A program made the position numbers and the translations under genes. Shown piece by piece: positions 5,473-55,322 of a DNA stretch of 64,000 bases. The notes beneath the pieces were generated by a model. That model saw only the letters and a program-made list of their open reading frames with translations, did no database searches and was not told where the DNA came from. Numbering within the stretch: position 1 is the first letter of the stretch; each line of letters starts with the position of its first letter. The stretch is from Clostridiales bacterium (GTDB taxonomy: Bacteria > Bacillota > Clostridia > Oscillospirales > Oscillospiraceae), in the NCBI GenBank assembly GCA_021202515.1, contig JAJQCW010000057.1, forward strand, positions 21,296 through 85,295, read 5' to 3'.

Positions 5473-5604
5473 ACATACGGAGAAACAGGAAAAAGAGCGC
5501 ACCAAACAAACCCGCTGCCACCCGGTCAAAATCGGGCGTCGGTGCGTTTTCCTTATATCCCCAGCTCCGGAAGTCCGCAGAGAATCGGATACTGCCGCGA
5601 TCGC

Positions 5605-5782
5605 GGCAGAGCGCAGGCAAGTATTCTGGCTTATCGCCTCAGCCCGAAAGGGGCGGCTCCGGCGTCTTCCCAGGGAGGCCCCCAGTGACATCTGTGCCAG
5701 AGTGTTTCGGCGAATTACAGCAACGGCCTTGCGTGGGACTTTCACCCAGCTTCCATGACCTGCGCCCTCATTGATTTTGTTT
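5605..5782 (-). ncRNA. Cobalamin (B12) riboswitch
   Basis: Minus strand contains GCTGGGTGAAAGTCCCACGCAAGGCCGTTGC...CACTGGGGGCC...GGGAAGACG...AAGCCAGAATACTTGCCTGCG, matching conserved blocks of the cobalamin riboswitch. Confidence 0.88.
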
Positions 5783-11491: not shown

Positions 11492-11545
11492 GCCTCGTTA
11501 GAATAATCCTAAATGAAATGTGGTTCTTCCTTATGCTGCCATATG

Positions 11546-11615
11546 TGTAGGGGCGGCCCTCGGCCACCTGAAGAACCGCTCTCTGGACTGCGGGCGGCCA
11601 CGGGCCGCCCCTACA
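11546..11615. repeat. Family-1 palindromic repeat, copy 1
   Basis: tgtaggggcggccctcggcc...ggcggccacgggccgcccctaca inverted repeat. Confidence 0.85.
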
Positions 11616-11694
11616 GGCGTACAAAATCCGTTAAATGCAAATAACAGCGCCGGAACTAAACGCGGTTCCGGCGCTGTCGCGTAAAGATAAAACT

Positions 11695-11800
11695 GGTTAT
11701 CCTTTTTTACTCAGCCTTGTGCTAGAAACCCCTCCGCCACCGCCTAAAGGCGGCGGCCCTCTTCCCCTTTCAGGGGAGGCAAGAGGGGATAGTGCTTGTC
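11695..11800. repeat. Family-2 repeat, short version
   Basis: agaaacccctccgccaccgcctaaaggcggcggccctcttcccctttcaggggaggcaagaggggatagtgcttgtc. Confidence 0.75.
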
Positions 11801-11959
11801 ATCTGGTGTGATTTTTGTTCAACAGATGTGGAATTTCAGTAGAAAATCCCGCATTCTAGCCACTAATCACTAGCTACTAGCCACTAAAATGCGTGGCTGA
11901 TTCAAAGGGATAACCAGTTTAATTTAAATGAATATGGTTCTTCCTTATACTACCGTATG

Positions 11960-12028
11960 TGTAGGGGCGGCCCTCGGCCGCCCGAAGAACCTCTCTCTGG
12001 ACGCGGGCGGCCACGGGCCGCCCCTACA
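11960..12028. repeat. Family-1 palindromic repeat, copy 2
   Basis: tgtaggggcggccctcggccgccc...gggcggccacgggccgcccctaca. Confidence 0.85.
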
Positions 12029-12149
12029 GGCGTGCAAAATCCGTTAAATGCAAAATAACAGCGCCGGAACCGCGTTTGGTTCCGGCGCTGTCGCGCTTAA
12101 CGAGATTATTAAGCCCTTCGCCGTTCGTCAGGGACTGCCAAGCTAACAG

Positions 12150-15649: not shown

Positions 15650-15785
15650 TTATCCCCTTTGTTCAGTCATATGCCAGAAACCCCTCCTCCACCGCCTAAA
15701 GGCGGCGGCCCTCCTCCGCCGTCAAGCGGCACTTCCGCTTCGCTCCCTGCCCTTTCAGGGGAGGCAAGGGGGATAGTGCTTGTCG
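15650..15785. repeat. Family-2 repeat, full-length version
   Basis: agaaacccctcctccaccgcctaaaggcggcggccctcctccgccgtcaagcggcacttccgcttcgctccctgccctttcaggggaggcaag. Confidence 0.85.
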
Positions 15786-17804: not shown

Positions 17805-17955
17805 AACCCCTCCGCCGTCAAGCGGCACTTCCGGGGCTTTGCCCCTCCCTGCGCCACCGCCTAAAGGCGGCGGTCCTCCTCCGCCGTCAAGCGGCACTTC
17901 CGGGGCTTTGCCCCTCCCTGCCCTTTCAGGGGAGGCAAGAGGGAGAGTGCTTGTT
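17805..17955. repeat. Family-2 repeat with internal duplication
   Basis: ccgccgtcaagcggcacttccggggctttgcccctccctg occurs twice flanking ccaccgcctaaaggcggcgg. Confidence 0.85.
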
Positions 17956-18625: not shown

Positions 18626-18668
18626 CTGGTTAGCTCCATCAGCTTGCTCTGGATTGTTCCCTCACGCC

Positions 18669-18738
18669 TGTAGGGGCGGCCCTTGGCCGCCCGCAGGAAC
18701 CGCCTGCTTATCTTGGGCGGCCAAGGGCCGCCCCTACA
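18669..18738. repeat. Family-1 palindromic repeat, copy 3
   Basis: tgtaggggcggcccttggccgccc...gggcggccaagggccgcccctaca. Confidence 0.85.
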
Positions 18739-18804
18739 CATAAAACAGCAAAAGAAAAATCAAAGTTTTATTCTATACACCGGTTCAGGAAAGGTAGAAC
18801 ACTT

Positions 18805-20649: not shown

Positions 20650-20765
20650 GTATCTGACCACCCCTCTTGCCTCCCCTGAAAGGGCAGGGAGGGGCAAAGC
20701 CCCGGAAGTGCCGCTTGACGGCGGAGGAGGGCCGCCGCCTTTAGGCGGTGGCGGATGGGTTTCCC
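20650..20765. repeat. Family-2 repeat, inverted orientation
   Basis: ccctgaaagggcagggaggggcaaagccccggaagtgccgcttgacggcggaggagggccgccgcctttaggcggtggcgg. Confidence 0.85.
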
Positions 20766-26590: not shown

Positions 26591-26757
26591 AGAGTGAAAT
26601 GCGTGGTTCATCCTGTATTTTACGACACTTGTCTGATTTTGTCCATTGATGAACGTCTCACAGGAGGGTAAAATATAAATCGTGCGATACATGTCGCACG
26701 ATAAATACGTCAGCCAGGGAGATGCACCTGGATGGAACAGGCAGAGGGAACACAGCC

Positions 26758-27627
26758 ATGATGGAACACGACAAGCAATCAGAAAGCGGTGTCAACGTCC
26801 TGTACTGTGGGGACAGAAACATCGAGGACGGCCTGATCCTGTCTGTCTTGTCGCTGCTCAGACACACGGCGGAGCCGCTGCATATCTTTGTGATGACGAT
26901 GAATCTGACCTTGGGGGAGCGTCAGATTTTACCTGTCACCCAGGGGACCATTCAATATCTGGATGGCTATGTCAAACAGAAAAATAAGGATAACTCCATC
27001 ACACGCATTGATGCAACCAGTCTGTTCCAGGCGGAGCCGCCCACGGCCAACCTGGGCACCCGCTTCACTCCCTGCTGTATGCTGCGGCTGTATGCCGACC
27101 AGGTGCCAGAGCTGCCGGAGCGCATCCTGTATTTGGACAACGACGTGCTGTGCCGGGGGGATTACAGCGCCTTTTACCACCAGGACATGGAGGGGTGTGA
27201 GCTGGCCGGCGTGCTGGACTATTATGGGAAGTGGTTCTTCCGAAACCGCTTGTTCCACATGGATTACCTCAACTCCGGGGTGCTGCTGCTGAACCTGAGA
27301 CACATCCGGGAGACCGGCCTGTTCGCCCGGTGCAGGGCCATGTGCCGTGATAAACAAATGTTCATGCCGGATCAGTCCGCTATCAACAAGCTGGCCCAGT
27401 CCAAAAAGCACTGGGGCCGGGCCTACAACGAGCAGCGGAAGCTGCATCAAAACACCGTTTTTCAACATTTCACCACCAGCTTTCGCTTTTTCCCCTGGAT
27501 ACACACCCTGACGGTGAAGCCCTGGCAGATCGAGCAGGTGCACCAAAAGCTGAAGCTGCATGAATATGATGACATTTTTCAGGAGTATACTGATGTCACC
27601 ACGACAATGAAAGGATACTTGCTATGA
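26758..27627 (+). CDS. Glycosyltransferase family 8
   Basis: VLYCGDRNIEDGLILSVLSLLRHT...RILYLDNDVLCRGDYSAFY...YLNSGVLLLNLRHIRETGLF. Confidence 0.88.
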   Translation: MMEHDKQSESGVNVLYCGDRNIEDGLILSVLSLLRHTAEPLHIFVMTMNLTLGERQILPVTQGTIQYLDGYVKQKNKDNSITRIDATSLFQAEPPTANLGTRFTPCCMLRLYADQVPELPERILYLDNDVLCRGDYSAFYHQDMEGCELAGVLDYYGKWFFRNRLFHMDYLNSGVLLLNLRHIRETGLFARCRAMCRDKQMFMPDQSAINKLAQSKKHWGRAYNEQRKLHQNTVFQHFTTSFRFFPWIHTLTVKPWQIEQVHQKLKLHEYDDIFQEYTDVTTTMKGYLL

Positions 27628-28703
27628 AGCAGGATGAAATTCCAATCTTTTTCACCGTAGACGAGAGCTATGCCCCCTATCTGGACTGTGCAATTCGCTC
27701 CATGCAGGGAGGCACGGAGCGCCGCAAGGAGAAGCGCAGCTTCGGAAGTGCTGCCCGACAGCAGAAGTACCCCTTGAGGGTAATGGAAAATGCGTCCAAA
27801 TCCCACACGTATCAAATCATCGTCCTCCATGAGGACTTGACCGAGGAAAGTCAGGAAAAGCTCTCCGCCGGTGTAAAGCCTCCCTTCCAGATACGCTTTC
27901 TTGAGATGCAGGGAGCGAAGCGGAAGTACCGCTTGACGGTAAAAGACAAACTGGCAGGTATCACAGACCGAGCCGAGAATAGATTGCGGTGCGATTACTT
28001 TACACTAACAATCTATTTTCGGCTCTTTATTGCCGATTTGTTCCCCGAATACGACAAGGGCATCTATCTGGACAGCGATATTGTGGTGCCGGGCGACATC
28101 TCCCAGCTCTTCCAGACCGAGCTGGGGGACAACCTCATCGCCGCCTGCGCTGACCGCTCCATCACGCCAGTGCCCGAACTGGTGGAGTATGTGGAGAATG
28201 CCGTGGGCGTTCCCATCGACCAGTATATCAACTCTGGCGTTCTGGTGATGAATCTGAAAAAAATGCGGGAGGTGGACTTCTCCGGGCATTTCCTCCACCT
28301 GCTCCAAACCTATCACTTTGACTGCCTCGCGCCCGATCAGGACTACTTCAACGCCATGTGCAACGGGAAAATCGTCTACCTGGACGAGAGCTGGGACGCC
28401 ATGCCGCCGGAGGGCGGCGGAACGGGTGCGATATTGGAGCATCCCAACCTGATCCACTACAACCTGTTTCAGAAGCCCTGGTGCTATGACAATATCCCGT
28501 ATGCGGACTACTTCTGGCGCTATGCAGAGGGTTCTCCCTTCTATGAGGACATCGTGCGGCACAAGGAGACTTATTCTGAGGAGCAGAAGCTGTCTGACCG
28601 CACCTGTCTGGGCAACATGGTGCGCAAGGGGCCGGAAGTGTGCAAACAGCCCATCACCTTCCGCAAAATGCAGGAAAAGGGAGAGAGGATTCGCGTATGT
28701 TGA
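27624..28703 (+). CDS. Glycosyltransferase family 8 carrying two in-frame repeat insertions
   Basis: IPIFFTVDESYAPYLDCAIRSM...CDYFTLTIYFRLFIADLFPEYDKGIYLDSDIVVPGDISQLF...YINSGVLVMNLKKMREVDF. Confidence 0.9.
   Translation: MKQDEIPIFFTVDESYAPYLDCAIRSMQGGTERRKEKRSFGSAARQQKYPLRVMENASKSHTYQIIVLHEDLTEESQEKLSAGVKPPFQIRFLEMQGAKRKYRLTVKDKLAGITDRAENRLRCDYFTLTIYFRLFIADLFPEYDKGIYLDSDIVVPGDISQLFQTELGDNLIAACADRSITPVPELVEYVENAVGVPIDQYINSGVLVMNLKKMREVDFSGHFLHLLQTYHFDCLAPDQDYFNAMCNGKIVYLDESWDAMPPEGGGTGAILEHPNLIHYNLFQKPWCYDNIPYADYFWRYAEGSPFYEDIVRHKETYSEEQKLSDRTCLGNMVRKGPEVCKQPITFRKMQEKGERIRVC
27705..27782 (+). repeat. In-frame 78-nt repeat insertion (26 codons) in GT8 gene
   Basis: cagggaggcacggagcgccgcaaggagaagcgcagcttcggaagtgctgcccgacagcagaagtaccccttgagggta; related to family-2 core. 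Confidence 0.75.
27909..27941 (+). repeat. In-frame 33-nt family-2 core insertion (11 codons) in GT8 gene
   Basis: cagggagcgaagcggaagtaccgcttgacggta; near-identical to the family-2 core cagggagcgaagcggaagtgccgcttgacggcgg (reverse complement of 15718-15752). Confidence 0.85.
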
Positions 28704-29593: not shown

Positions 29594-32500
29594 GTGGAAG
29601 AGACAGTCAAAACCCTTCGCCTTGGTATCGACGTGGGTTCCACAACCGTCAAAGTGGTTGTCACCGACCCGGAAACCGGGAAAATGCTCCACGCACGCTA
29701 TGTTCGGCACAACGCCAGGCAGCAGGAAACAGTAGAAAGTCTGCTTCGGGAGGCGGCGGGGCTTTTCCCTGCGGCGCAGTTCCGGGCGGCGGTCTGCGGC
29801 TCCGGCGGCAGGCCGATTGCGCAAAAGCTGGGTGTCCCGTACATACAGGAAGTGGTGGCCAACTCCGCCGCCGTCCGGGCGCTGTACCCCAATGTAAAAA
29901 CCGCCGTGGAGCTGGGCGGACAGGACGCAAAGGTCGTGTTTTTCTACTACGACGAGCAAAAGGGCCAGCTCCAAACCTCGGATATGCGGATGAACGGCAG
30001 TTGTGCCGGTGGCACCGGCGCATTCATTGACGAGGTGGCGGCGTTGCTGAACGTGGAGCCGGAGCAGTTTGAAGTTCTGGCGGAGCAGGGCCGCACGGTT
30101 TACGACATCTCCGGCAGGTGTGGCGTGTTCGCCAAGACGGACATTCAGCCGCTGCTCCTCTCTGGAGCCAGGAAGGAGGACATCGCCCTGTCCACCTTCC
30201 ACGCCATCGTGAAGCAGACCATCGGCGGACTGGCCCAGGGGTTGGAGCTGACAGCTCCTATCATTTTTGAAGGTGGTCCGCTGACCTTTCATCCCACTTT
30301 GATGCGGGTGTTTGTGGAGCGGCTGCATCTGTCGGAAAATGACGTTGTCCGCCCGGAGCATCCGGAGACCATCGTGGCCTACGGCACAGCCATCGCCATC
30401 GACCAGCTTTTCCCCAACGAGGGGGACACAGCCACCCTGGGGGAGCTGTTGGAACGGCTGGCGCAGTCAGAGGAAACCTCCAGCGCAGACGAGGACGTGC
30501 AGAAGCCCTTTTTCCCCTCTTGGGAGGCACAGCAGACCTTTCAGGCGCGGCATGACTGGGAGTTGAAAGACCTGTGTCAGCCAATGCCGGTGAACGGGGA
30601 GCTGCGGGTCTGGCTGGGCATCGACTCCGGCAGCACTACCTCCAAGTTTGTCCTGCTGGACGAGGAGGAGCGGGTCATTGACCGGTTCTACGCAAACAAC
30701 AAAGGGGAGCCTTTGCTGGTGGTGCGGGACGGGCTGAACGCCCTCAAGCGGAAGTATGACGCACAGGGCACCAAGCTGACGGTTCTGGGCCTGGGCACCA
30801 CCGGCTACGGTGAACAGCTATTGGCCCAGGCATTTGGCGCGGACTACCACACCGTTGAGACTGTGGCCCACGCGATGGGCTGCACCCAGTACTACCCGGA
30901 GGCCACCTTCCTGTTGGACATCGGCGGCCAGGACATGAAGGCCATCTGGCTGGAGGACGGCATCATCACCAACATCATGCTGAACGAAGCCTGTTCCTCC
31001 GGGTGCGGCTCCTTTCTGGAAAATTTCGCGGTGAACCTGAATCTCCCCGTGGAGAAAATCGCAGAGGCGGCGTTCCGGTCAGAAGCCCCGGCCCATCTGG
31101 GCAGCCGCTGCACCGTGTTTATGAACAGCACCATCATCAACGAGCAGCGGCGGGGCAAAGGCCCGGATGACATTATGGCGGGGCTGTGCCGTTCCATCAT
31201 TGAGAACGTGTTCACCAAGGTGGTGCGCATCTCCAACACCGCCCAGTTGGGAGACTGCATTGTGGTGCAGGGCGGCACCTTCCGCAACCGGGCGGTGCTG
31301 CGGGCGCTGGAGGAATATCTGGGCGCGGAGGTGAAGCTGGCTCCCTACCCAGGCGAGATGGGGGCCATCGGCGCAGCCCTGGCGGTGAAGCGGCAGGTGG
31401 CGGAATCCGGCTATGGTCACGGCAGCTCGTCCTCCTTCATCGGCTTTGACGCGGTGGAACGCTTCAACTACGAGACGCAGACCGGCGTTCCCTGTCTGGG
31501 CTGCGGTAACCGGTGCAATCGCACCATCGTTCGCTTCTCCACCGGAAAACAGTGGATCTCCGGCAACCGGTGCGAGAAGGGAGCGGCGGAGGCGCAGGAC
31601 AGCTCCGCGCCGGAGAAACCGGCAAAGGAAAAACCGGCAGACCTGTTTGCGGAGCGGGAAAAACTGCTGTTTCAGGACTACCCTTATCAGCAGGCCGCCC
31701 CGGATAAGGGGGAGGTCGTCGGCCTGCCCAGGGTGCTGGAGTTCTGGGACAGTATGCCCTTCTGGAGCACCTTCTTCCGGTCGCTGGGCTATCAGGTGAA
31801 ATTCTCCCACAAAAGTTCCCGCAAACTGTATGAGCAGGGGCTGCAATATGTGGCCTCCGATACGGTCTGTTTCCCGGCCAAGCTGGTACACGGCCACATC
31901 ATGGACTTGGCGCAGGCGGGGGTTGACTGCATCTTTTTTCCCTATGTGATGCACATGCCCCCGGAGGGGGTGGACAAGCTCAGCCCCTATGTCTGCTCCG
32001 TCCTCCAGGGCTACCCTATGGTGGTACGGAACTCCCAGGACCCGGCGCGGGGCGGGAAGGTCGTCTTTGACACCCCTGTCTTTCACTGGTTCGCGGAGAA
32101 GGACCGGAAGAAGCAGATTTGCCGCTACGCGGTGGAGACGTTGGGCGTCACCAAAGGGGAGGCGGAGTCCGCCTTCCGGGACGGCGAACAGGCGCTGTGC
32201 ACCTTCCGCAATGCCCTGACCGGGCGGGGCGAGGAAGTGCTGCGCCAGGTGCATGAAAACGGCTCCTATGCGGTGGTGCTGGCAGGGCGTCCCTACCACA
32301 CCGACCCCTTCATCTGCCACGACATCTTCAAGCGGTTCGAGGAGCGGGGCGTGCCGGTGCTGACCGTGGACAGCCTGCCCCATCTCAGCGAGCAGGATTT
32401 GAAAAACACCACCATTGAAATCACCAACAACTTCCACACCCGGATGCTGGAGGGCGCGATGGTGGCGGCGAAAGACCCGGCGCTGGAGTACGTGCAGATC

Positions 32501-33955
32501 GTCAGCTTCGGCTGCGGCCACGACGCCATTTTGTCTGACGAGATCAGCCGTATTCTTACCGAGAGCGGGGGCAAGTCCCCGCTGATCCTCAAGGTGGACG
32601 AGAGCGACGCCACCGGCTCCCTGGGAATCCGCATCCAGTCCTTCCTGGAGACCATTGAAATCAAGCGGCGGGACGCCCGACTGCGGGAGAATATGCTGCA
32701 CTGGTATAAAGAGTTGCCCGAACCCAGCCCGACCAAATTCTACAAGCAGGACAAGAAAACCCGCACCATCCTGGTCCCCAATATTTCCAAAGAGGTGTCC
32801 GTCCTGCTCTCCGCCATCATGGAGAAGGAGCATTATAAGGTTCAGACGCTGCCCATCGGCGGACGGGAGCAAATCGCGCTGGGCAAGAAGTATGTCCACA
32901 ACGACATCTGTTTCCCCTGCCAGATGGTGATCGGGGAGCTTATCAGCGCCTTGCAGGAGGGACACTACCGGCAGGACGAAGTGGCCGTGGCGATGGTGAA
33001 GTTCCAGTGCGACTGCCGGATGTCCCACTATGCGGGGCTGCTGCGCAAGGGCCTGGACAGAGCTGGGTTCACGGAGGTCCCCATCGTCACCACGGACATG
33101 GGCGACACAAAGGAGATGCACCCCGGCGTAGCCGTCCTTGGGGTCAGCGCGGTCTGGGAGGCAGTCTGGACGTTTCTGATGCTGGACATCCTCACCGACC
33201 TGTGCCGGAAGATACGTCCCTATGAGCTGCATCCCGGCGAGACGGACGAGGTTTATCAGGACTGCGTCGCGCAGATCGCAGAAGGCATCCGCGGCGGCGT
33301 AGGCAGCGCCCGGCGTGCTTTTGCCCACTGTATCGACCAGATGGGGCAGATCCCCTATGACCGGAGCCACCTGAAGCCAAAGGTGTTCGTCACCGGCGAG
33401 CTGCTGGTGACCTACCACCCAGGCTCCAACTTCAACATCGAGCGGTATTTGGAGGCCAACGGCATGGAGACGGCCTTTCCCAGAATCACCGACCAGCTAC
33501 GAAAGGATTTCCGGGCGACGGAGTGTGAAATCAAGGACTACCACGCCAACATCCCGCCCTATCCCCAACTGGTGGAGGGCCTGTTTGACTATGTGCAAAG
33601 GCAGTTGGAGAAGGTCGCCGTCCGGCACCCGCTCTATGAATACGCCAAAAAGCCTAAGGAGCTGTATCAGGAGGTCAACGACATCATCCCGGAGACGCTG
33701 AGCTGCGGCGAGGGCTGGCTGATGGCGGCGGAAATCGCCCACAACGCCAAAGAGGGCGTCAAATCCTTCATCATTTTGCAGCCCTTTGGCTGCCTGCCCA
33801 ACCATGTCTGTGGCCGGGGCGTCATCAAGCGGCTCAAGGAGGAGTATCCAGGCATCTCCATCCTGCCGCTGGATTTGGACCCGGACACCAGCTATGCCAA
33901 CGTGGAGAACCGTCTGCAAATGCTCATCATGAATCATGGGGCGCAGGGAGCGTAG
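29594..33955 (+). CDS. Acyl-CoA dehydratase activase / BadF-BadG-HgdC ATPase tandem domain + DUF2229-like giant protein
   Basis: Two ASKHA ATPase starts (RLGIDVGSTTVKVVVTD; VWLGIDSGSTTSKFVLLDEEE), LDIGGQDMKAIWLEDG, GCGSFLENFA, C-terminal QPFGCLPNHVCGRG. Confidence 0.92.
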   Translation: MEETVKTLRLGIDVGSTTVKVVVTDPETGKMLHARYVRHNARQQETVESLLREAAGLFPAAQFRAAVCGSGGRPIAQKLGVPYIQEVVANSAAVRALYPNVKTAVELGGQDAKVVFFYYDEQKGQLQTSDMRMNGSCAGGTGAFIDEVAALLNVEPEQFEVLAEQGRTVYDISGRCGVFAKTDIQPLLLSGARKEDIALSTFHAIVKQTIGGLAQGLELTAPIIFEGGPLTFHPTLMRVFVERLHLSENDVVRPEHPETIVAYGTAIAIDQLFPNEGDTATLGELLERLAQSEETSSADEDVQKPFFPSWEAQQTFQARHDWELKDLCQPMPVNGELRVWLGIDSGSTTSKFVLLDEEERVIDRFYANNKGEPLLVVRDGLNALKRKYDAQGTKLTVLGLGTTGYGEQLLAQAFGADYHTVETVAHAMGCTQYYPEATFLLDIGGQDMKAIWLEDGIITNIMLNEACSSGCGSFLENFAVNLNLPVEKIAEAAFRSEAPAHLGSRCTVFMNSTIINEQRRGKGPDDIMAGLCRSIIENVFTKVVRISNTAQLGDCIVVQGGTFRNRAVLRALEEYLGAEVKLAPYPGEMGAIGAALAVKRQVAESGYGHGSSSSFIGFDAVERFNYETQTGVPCLGCGNRCNRTIVRFSTGKQWISGNRCEKGAAEAQDSSAPEKPAKEKPADLFAEREKLLFQDYPYQQAAPDKGEVVGLPRVLEFWDSMPFWSTFFRSLGYQVKFSHKSSRKLYEQGLQYVASDTVCFPAKLVHGHIMDLAQAGVDCIFFPYVMHMPPEGVDKLSPYVCSVLQGYPMVVRNSQDPARGGKVVFDTPVFHWFAEKDRKKQICRYAVETLGVTKGEAESAFRDGEQALCTFRNALTGRGEEVLRQVHENGSYAVVLAGRPYHTDPFICHDIFKRFEERGVPVLTVDSLPHLSEQDLKNTTIEITNNFHTRMLEGAMVAAKDPALEYVQIVSFGCGHDAILSDEISRILTESGGKSPLILKVDESDATGSLGIRIQSFLETIEIKRRDARLRENMLHWYKELPEPSPTKFYKQDKKTRTILVPNISKEVSVLLSAIMEKEHYKVQTLPIGGREQIALGKKYVHNDICFPCQMVIGELISALQEGHYRQDEVAVAMVKFQCDCRMSHYAGLLRKGLDRAGFTEVPIVTTDMGDTKEMHPGVAVLGVSAVWEAVWTFLMLDILTDLCRKIRPYELHPGETDEVYQDCVAQIAEGIRGGVGSARRAFAHCIDQMGQIPYDRSHLKPKVFVTGELLVTYHPGSNFNIERYLEANGMETAFPRITDQLRKDFRATECEIKDYHANIPPYPQLVEGLFDYVQRQLEKVAVRHPLYEYAKKPKELYQEVNDIIPETLSCGEGWLMAAEIAHNAKEGVKSFIILQPFGCLPNHVCGRGVIKRLKEEYPGISILPLDLDPDTSYANVENRLQMLIMNHGAQGA

Positions 33956-34016
33956 CGCAGGGAGAAGCGCAGCTTCGGAAGTACCCCTTGAGGGTAGAAG
34001 TGCCTCTTGAGGGTAG
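33944..34016 (+). repeat. Family-2-related repeat at the 3' end of the activase gene
   Basis: cagggagcgtagcgcagggagaagcgcagcttcggaagtaccccttgagggtagaagtgcctcttgagggtag; the annotated stop (33953-33955) lies inside it. Confidence 0.75.
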
Positions 34017-41335: not shown

Positions 41336-41401
41336 TAGAATCATCTGGTCGTCTCTTTGAATCAGCTTTAGGCACTTTGCATGGAACGATTACTGCACAC
41401 C

Positions 41402-41470
41402 TGTAGGGGCGGCCCGTGGCCGCCCGGGTAAGTAGGCGGTTCCTGCGGGCGGCGAAGCGCCGCCCCTACA
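41402..41470. repeat. Family-1 palindromic repeat, copy 4
   Basis: tgtaggggcggcccgtggccgccc...gggcggcgaagcgccgcccctaca. Confidence 0.8.
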
Positions 41471-41617
41471 CTTACAACAGCAAAAGAGAAACCATGCGCC
41501 TAGTGGCGGAGGGGTTTCTGGCACACAAATTAGCAATCAAAAACATCCCAACGCGCACTTTTCCAGCACTTCCAACCTTGAACAGTTTCAACAGACAGCA
41601 ACAGGAGGAACGGAATT

Positions 41618-55120: not shown

Positions 55121-55229
55121 TCAGGAACTCACCGTTCCACACAAAAATTTCAGCGCCTGTCCCTGAAAATGGGGCAGGCGCTTTTTTCGCGGTTTTTGGT
55201 TCGCGGCTTTTCCACTTTTTCTTTCCACC

Positions 55230-55299
55230 TGTAGGGGCGGCCCTTGGCCGCCCTGGGTAAGCAGGTGCTTTCTGCGGGCGGCCAAGGGCCGCCCCTACA
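55230..55299. repeat. Family-1 palindromic repeat, copy 5
   Basis: tgtaggggcggcccttggccgccc...gggcggccaagggccgcccctaca. Confidence 0.85.
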
Positions 55300-55322
55300 T
55301 ATACGGCAGAAAAAATGTCGTT

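Follow-up and report, generated by a model that had tools for sequence, protein, structure and literature searches.

The two in-frame segments within the GT8 family glycosyltransferase gene of the window (the whole 64,000-nucleotide stretch of DNA analysed here) most probably represent a non-autonomous mobile repeat, built of two hairpins, that is moved in trans, inserts seamlessly, nests within itself and is kept where its copies fall in protein loops. We put the probability of this reading at about 0.85. The preliminary description had proposed a mobile palindromic repeat tolerated in frame as in Rickettsia, and this is borne out by empty and filled sites, by the dispersal of the repeat and by purifying selection on the GT8 gene. 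In-frame selfish palindromes, best known from Rickettsia, are now seen in an uncultured clostridial gut genus.

The host gene belongs to the GT8 family by its match to PF01501 and by an LgtC-like fold with a DxD motif; the nearest solved folds are WbbM and LgtC. An ORF at 27624-28703 with inserts of 78 nt (27705-27782) and 33 nt (27909-27941) had been described, and the ORF, both inserts and their peptides were found at exactly these positions. Both inserts start with CAGGGAG, are preceded by ATG, end with GGTA and have a length divisible by three, as had been noted. The 78-nt insert does consist of repeat sequence; it is not the single repeat it had been taken for, but one 39-mer within another 39-mer, and with insert 2 the gene holds three units. 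Without the two segments the GT8 sequence had been said to read continuously, and that reading equals exactly the one found in congeners. Six congeners matched by tblastn lack exactly residues 28-53, and the neighbouring GT8 gene (26722-27627) has no unit, again as described.

Table 1. Repeat units in the window and host genes with empty and filled sites. Positions are those of the window unless a locus is named.
Feature	Position	Strand	Description	Basis
33-nt unit	15717..15749	-	part of intergenic composite palindrome	
39-nt unit outside GT8	17813..17851	-		
39-nt unit outside GT8	17882..17920	-		
39-nt unit outside GT8	20685..20723	+		
GT8 family glycosyltransferase ORF	27624..28703	+	359 aa, holds both inserts	PF01501 Glyco_transf_8, 3e-40; LgtC/WbbM-like fold
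Insert 1, outer 39-nt unit, left half	27705..27724	+	CAGGGAGGCACGGAGCGCCG	direct reading; seven orthologues with empty site
Insert 1, inner 39-nt unit within outer	27725..27763	+	CAAGGAGAAGCGCAGCTTCGGAAGTGCTGCCCGACAGCA	direct reading; nesting point as at other loci
Insert 1, outer unit, right half	27764..27782	+	GAAGTACCCCTTGAGGGTA	direct reading
Insert 2, single 33-nt unit	27909..27941	+	CAGGGAGCGAAGCGGAAGTACCGCTTGACGGTA; aa 96-106	orthologue alignment
Nested pair, 3' end of 1453-aa ORF (29594-33955)	33944..34015	+	33-nt unit (33944-33957 and 33997-34015) around 39-nt unit (33958-33996)	
Response regulator			39-nt insert	empty and filled sites
GH130			39-nt insert	empty and filled sites
AI-2E transporter			33-nt insert	empty and filled sites
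Amidase			33-nt insert	empty and filled sites
Alpha-rhamnosidase			78-nt insert	empty and filled sites
LysR regulator	L079 (G000:C23:4225-6318)		78-nt nested insert within helix-turn-helix	empty and filled sites
Cas3	L067 (G000:C10:18776-22542)		two 39-nt units	empty and filled sites
GH3	L078 (G000:C23:1-2709)		inserts of 39, 39, 111, 111 and 112 nt, absent from G042	empty and filled sites
Conserved membrane protein			72-nt insert	empty and filled sites

The repeat unit is 33 or 39 nt long and consists of CAGGGA, hairpin 1, GGAAG and hairpin 2; it starts with CA[AG]GGAG and ends with GG[CT][AG]. The stem of hairpin 1 has 2 bp in the 33-mer and 5 bp in the 39-mer, and hairpin 2 has a 5-bp stem with the loop CTTGA. 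We inspected 103 clusters, about half of all copies. Parsing yielded 49 units of 33 nt, 57 of 39 nt, one of 38 nt and none of 34-37 nt, the longer strings being nested copies, and the loci of relatives gave 12 units of 33 nt and 16 of 39 nt. Covariation was examined in 35 distinct 39-nt units. In these, 99.1% of stem cells were paired compared to 85.9% in shuffled units, and 55 stem cells carried double changes compared to 15 expected from the shuffles. The covariation score was 0.506 against 0.236 when shuffled and was reached by 0 of 500 shuffles; both stems covary strongly and the slid controls collapse. Selection therefore acts on the pair of hairpins, as DNA or as RNA, and not on a peptide. 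The unit is free of stops in five of six frames, the exception being +1. Copies between genes are as long as those within genes, so divisibility by three is built into the 33/39-nt unit and alone is no evidence for selection on the GT8 gene. The unit matches no curated structured-RNA family in Rfam, and a search of the window gave no match at the repeat site; its only match was a cobalamin riboswitch elsewhere (RF00174, 67 bits, 5599-5778 on the minus strand).

The predicted dispersal of the repeat was confirmed: at ≤3 mismatches, the 2.63-Mb host genome has 64 occurrences of the 31-nt motif CAGGGAGCGAAGCGGAAGTNCCGCTTGACGG, compared to 0 for the reversed control. The core module GGAAGTNCCSCTTGASGG gave 223 matches at ≤2 mismatches in the same genome (control, 5), and the motif count within the window was reached by 0 of 100 shuffles. 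Copies outside the GT8 gene are listed in Table 1; the 1453-aa ORF ends inside one of them, the first 12 nt of the unit encoding QGA and the stop codon TAG. Among 98 relatives tested, 20 had the core module, and all 20 belong to the same genus as the window; the 66 genomes from other genera had no copy. Copy numbers within this one genus range over 159, 134, 94, 90, 77 and so on down to 0 per genome, a spread that points to bursts.

Insertion occurs mainly at G^GARG, as judged from the target logo, and no target-site duplication was seen at the empty and filled sites compared. A third of the units (35 of 105) have as their target GAAAGGG^GAGG within another, unlike intergenic palindrome. In the window, a separate family of palindromes (TGTAGGGGCGGCCCTTGGCCGCCC...) occurs at 11540-12054, 18663-18764, 41376-41486 and 55219-55314, and members of this family at other places in the genome have received the unit (GGCCA^AGGGCCG). 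The usual place of a nested insertion is the stretch that separates hairpin 1 from hairpin 2 (..CG^GAAG). The resulting order of left, left, right, right recurs at other loci, and this grammar accounts for the 78-nt insert in the window as nested 39-mers. In the alpha-rhamnosidase gene the insert is 39 nt long in G015 and 78 nt in this genome, the additional 39 nt lying within the older copy, a case of nesting caught between two species.

Seventy loci were fetched from named genomes, and 43 GT8 sequences were aligned. DNA alignment of eight congeneric genes revealed three independent, precise insertions, and congeneric orthologues provide the empty sites that had been called for at both inserts. 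The 78-nt insertion, after the ATG ending at 27704, is present in this genome only. Insert 2, after the ATG ending at 27908, is shared by G000, G015, G001 and loci L121-L124 and is absent from the other aligned orthologues. The third insertion, 39 nt in frame (TGRGAAPEVPLDG), lies between the positions of inserts 1 and 2 and occurs only in another species, G004. Among the sister-group orthologues aligned there are two more in-frame events, built from other sequences, and therefore the GT8 gene alone has taken at least five independent in-frame insertions among the relatives aligned. The sister-group loci L146, L148, L151, L152 and L153 carry in-frame inserts of 25-56 aa with a common GGAAACgCCC start; the one that was searched, 75 nt long and from L148, is similar to a dispersed repeat of these genomes, with 1 to 26 matches in each. 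The MAG Zagget6, which by its name and contig labels matches a koala faecal study (PMC5697889), supplied one GT8 locus close to the gene in the window. Comparison of close relatives shows sites prior to insertion, in its course (first single, then nested) and afterwards.

Other genes provide further empty and filled sites (Table 1). These hosts were first chosen for open ORFs, so the in-frame count is biased. Of 73 modules within long ORFs, many fall in ORFs that are probably spurious, and these were left out of the genic count. In a Pfam scan of 20 ORFs, six had no match, and every host gene with empty and filled sites has Pfam support except the conserved membrane protein. The 111-nt inserts of the GH3 gene are a different 78-nt element with a 33-nt unit inside. 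A second GH3 ORF (L029, G000:C8:1-1602) enters tandem 33-mer left ends (QAGSAA repeated) at the contig end. The LysR insert should impair DNA binding, given its place in the helix-turn-helix. Many insertions in these other genes stay in frame, because the units are multiples of three and free of stops in all frames but one; unit length largely explains the in-frame state, and function has to be judged by how selection acts on the remainder of the gene.

Among five GT8 genes with insert 2, dN/dS was 0.08-0.13 at dS of up to 0.41, much as in comparisons of relatives that lack the insert, and the GT8 gene remains under purifying selection with its insert at dN/dS of about 0.1. In the AF2 model, pLDDT exceeds 90 across most of the core, and the core and DxD motif are retained. 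Insert 1 is placed between the first helix (14-28) and the second strand (62-69) with pLDDT of about 36-41 over most of its length, and is predicted to be disordered; insert 2 follows the third strand (88-94), and both inserts are predicted to lie in loops. The gene could alternatively be a decaying copy, open merely because the repeat is a multiple of three. Openness does prove little for a repeat of such length, and some other hosts are decaying: the Cas3 gene has lost the stretch around its nucleotide-binding motif and adjoins sequence of another repeat family, probably as part of a decaying CRISPR system, and the last, fifth insert of the GH3 gene L078 (112 nt) shifts the frame in a gene cut by the contig end. 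Set against the dN/dS values across five species and the intact core, decay of the GT8 gene is unlikely, and for insert 2 it is largely refuted. Judged by its conservation in relatives, the GT8 gene still appears to work. Purifying selection and the predicted loop positions together suggest that the inserts are tolerated rather than beneficial; for insert 1, which this genome alone carries, tolerance is read from the gene as a whole.

The preliminary description had offered decay or the diversification of proteins as the two options, and neither fits the GT8 gene well, with unrelated peptides and dN/dS of about 0.1. If the repeat usefully diversified proteins, the encoded peptide itself would be selected. 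The five or more insertions in one gene are in keeping with this, as is the single base difference in insert 2 among its five carriers while synonymous divergence reaches about 0.4. With 33 bases, this near-identity is a hint that falls short of significance; it could stem from selection, from gene conversion or from transfer. Selection for the peptide is nevertheless distinctly improbable, because no fewer than four of the six frames, in both orientations, are in use among the verified host genes, which yield unrelated peptides (EVPLDG, KYRLTV, VKRHFR, SSGT); conservation follows hairpin pairing rather than codons, and the disorder predicted for insert 1 also speaks against it.

The frames used bear as well on whether the inserts reach the protein. 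Hairpins this strong and conserved might allow excision from the mRNA or bypass in translation, leaving the protein uninterrupted, and some inserts lie where 26 residues should do damage, as in the LysR helix-turn-helix. We screened 79 isolated units, ignoring stops inside the unit and requiring both flanks to be open for ≥80 codons. Nine were in +2, three in +0 and one in the stop-containing +1 frame, and this sole +1 case is the AI-2E gene, which is actually read in +2. Though small in number, these counts argue for inserts that are translated rather than removed. No verified insertion is in the stop-containing frame and the GT8 inserts are at loop positions, as expected if translated, which makes removal or bypass very hard to sustain. 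An assembly or binning artefact is scarcely credible: the genomes are draft assemblies throughout (the named ones MAGs) and some copies are at contig ends, but insert 2 occurs at the identical base in several separately named assemblies and the window lies deep inside an 85-kb contig.

For the mobile, loop-tolerated repeat we propose the following mechanism. An enzyme acting in trans would move the unit, probably by recognising its hairpins, and would insert it precisely, for the most part at G^GARG-like sites, which are not duplicated in the process. The unit has such a site of its own between its hairpins, so copies nest. Within a gene, insertion would usually add 11-13 codons, or 24-26 when nested, because the unit is a multiple of three and stop-free in five of six frames. 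Selection would then purge damaging insertions and retain those in loops, as in the GT8 gene.

Several candidates for the mobiliser were examined and set aside. Y1_Tnp (PF01797) was found in none of six copy-rich genomes tested (G000, G001, G015, G022, G041 and G042) and was present in four congeners with zero copies; a Y1/RAYT transposase is thus missing where copies abound, and its loss after a burst is possible. Reverse transcriptases showed no association with copy number. Serine recombinases do not track it either. The most closely related of them, small enzymes encoded at L245-L250, do occur in the four genomes with the most copies, but they are surrounded by accessory DNA that lacks the unit, which leaves them a weak lead. 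An autonomous partner was rejected too: the two ends lie next to each other in nearly all units sampled, and in the stretches read no pair of ends brackets an ORF. Viral contigs contained no exact match that would indicate a viral source. It is conceivable, though we hold this only tentatively, that the repeat represents a new class: a transposase-less 33/39-nt two-hairpin unit moved by a type of enzyme not yet linked to REPs, seamless at G^GARG and in itself, and with a geometry of 3n length and five open frames that was shaped by repeated passage through coding genes. The system offers a tractable search for the mobilising enzyme. It also provides a natural insertion scan of real proteins and a clean measure of the number of insertions that genes can bear.

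The repeat is a new family of protein-tolerated palindromic element, of a known kind, and stands outside the RPEs, REPs and MITEs because it departs from the RPE size and single peptide, the REP tag and the MITE ends. Its novelty for the lineage rests on our having found no description in clostridia in the open-access literature, which is not proof of absence. Rickettsia palindromic elements are ~150 bp long, each with a conserved peptide (Ogata 2000, 2002; reviewed in PMC10969869). Like them, the unit is dispersed palindromic DNA, in frame in unrelated and probably functional genes whose orthologues have empty sites. Unlike them, it comes from an uncultured clostridial genus, measures 33/39 nt rather than ~100-150 bp, has two short hairpins, nests in itself and is read in four or more frames among the verified genes, with no one conserved peptide. 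MITEs such as ERIC, Correia and RUP (reviewed in PMC10969869) are likewise short, dispersed and probably moved in trans. In contrast to these, the unit is much shorter, its ends are not inverted repeats (MITEs have terminal ones of 15-30 bp) and no duplication accompanies it at the sites compared. Intragenic GTAG/CGTC REPs are hairpin units of 20-40 nt in ORFs, sometimes twice per gene, as in uvrA and uvrB (PMC3733652). The present unit resembles them in placing hairpins inside ORFs and in sometimes hitting one gene twice; it differs in having two different hairpins per unit, ends without an invariant GTAG or CGTC tetranucleotide and no RAYT gene in the copy-rich genomes tested. By their description as protein-coding palindromic repeats (Ogata 2005, as cited in PMC3733652), the WPE of Wolbachia are a further likeness, being palindromic repeats with coding potential.
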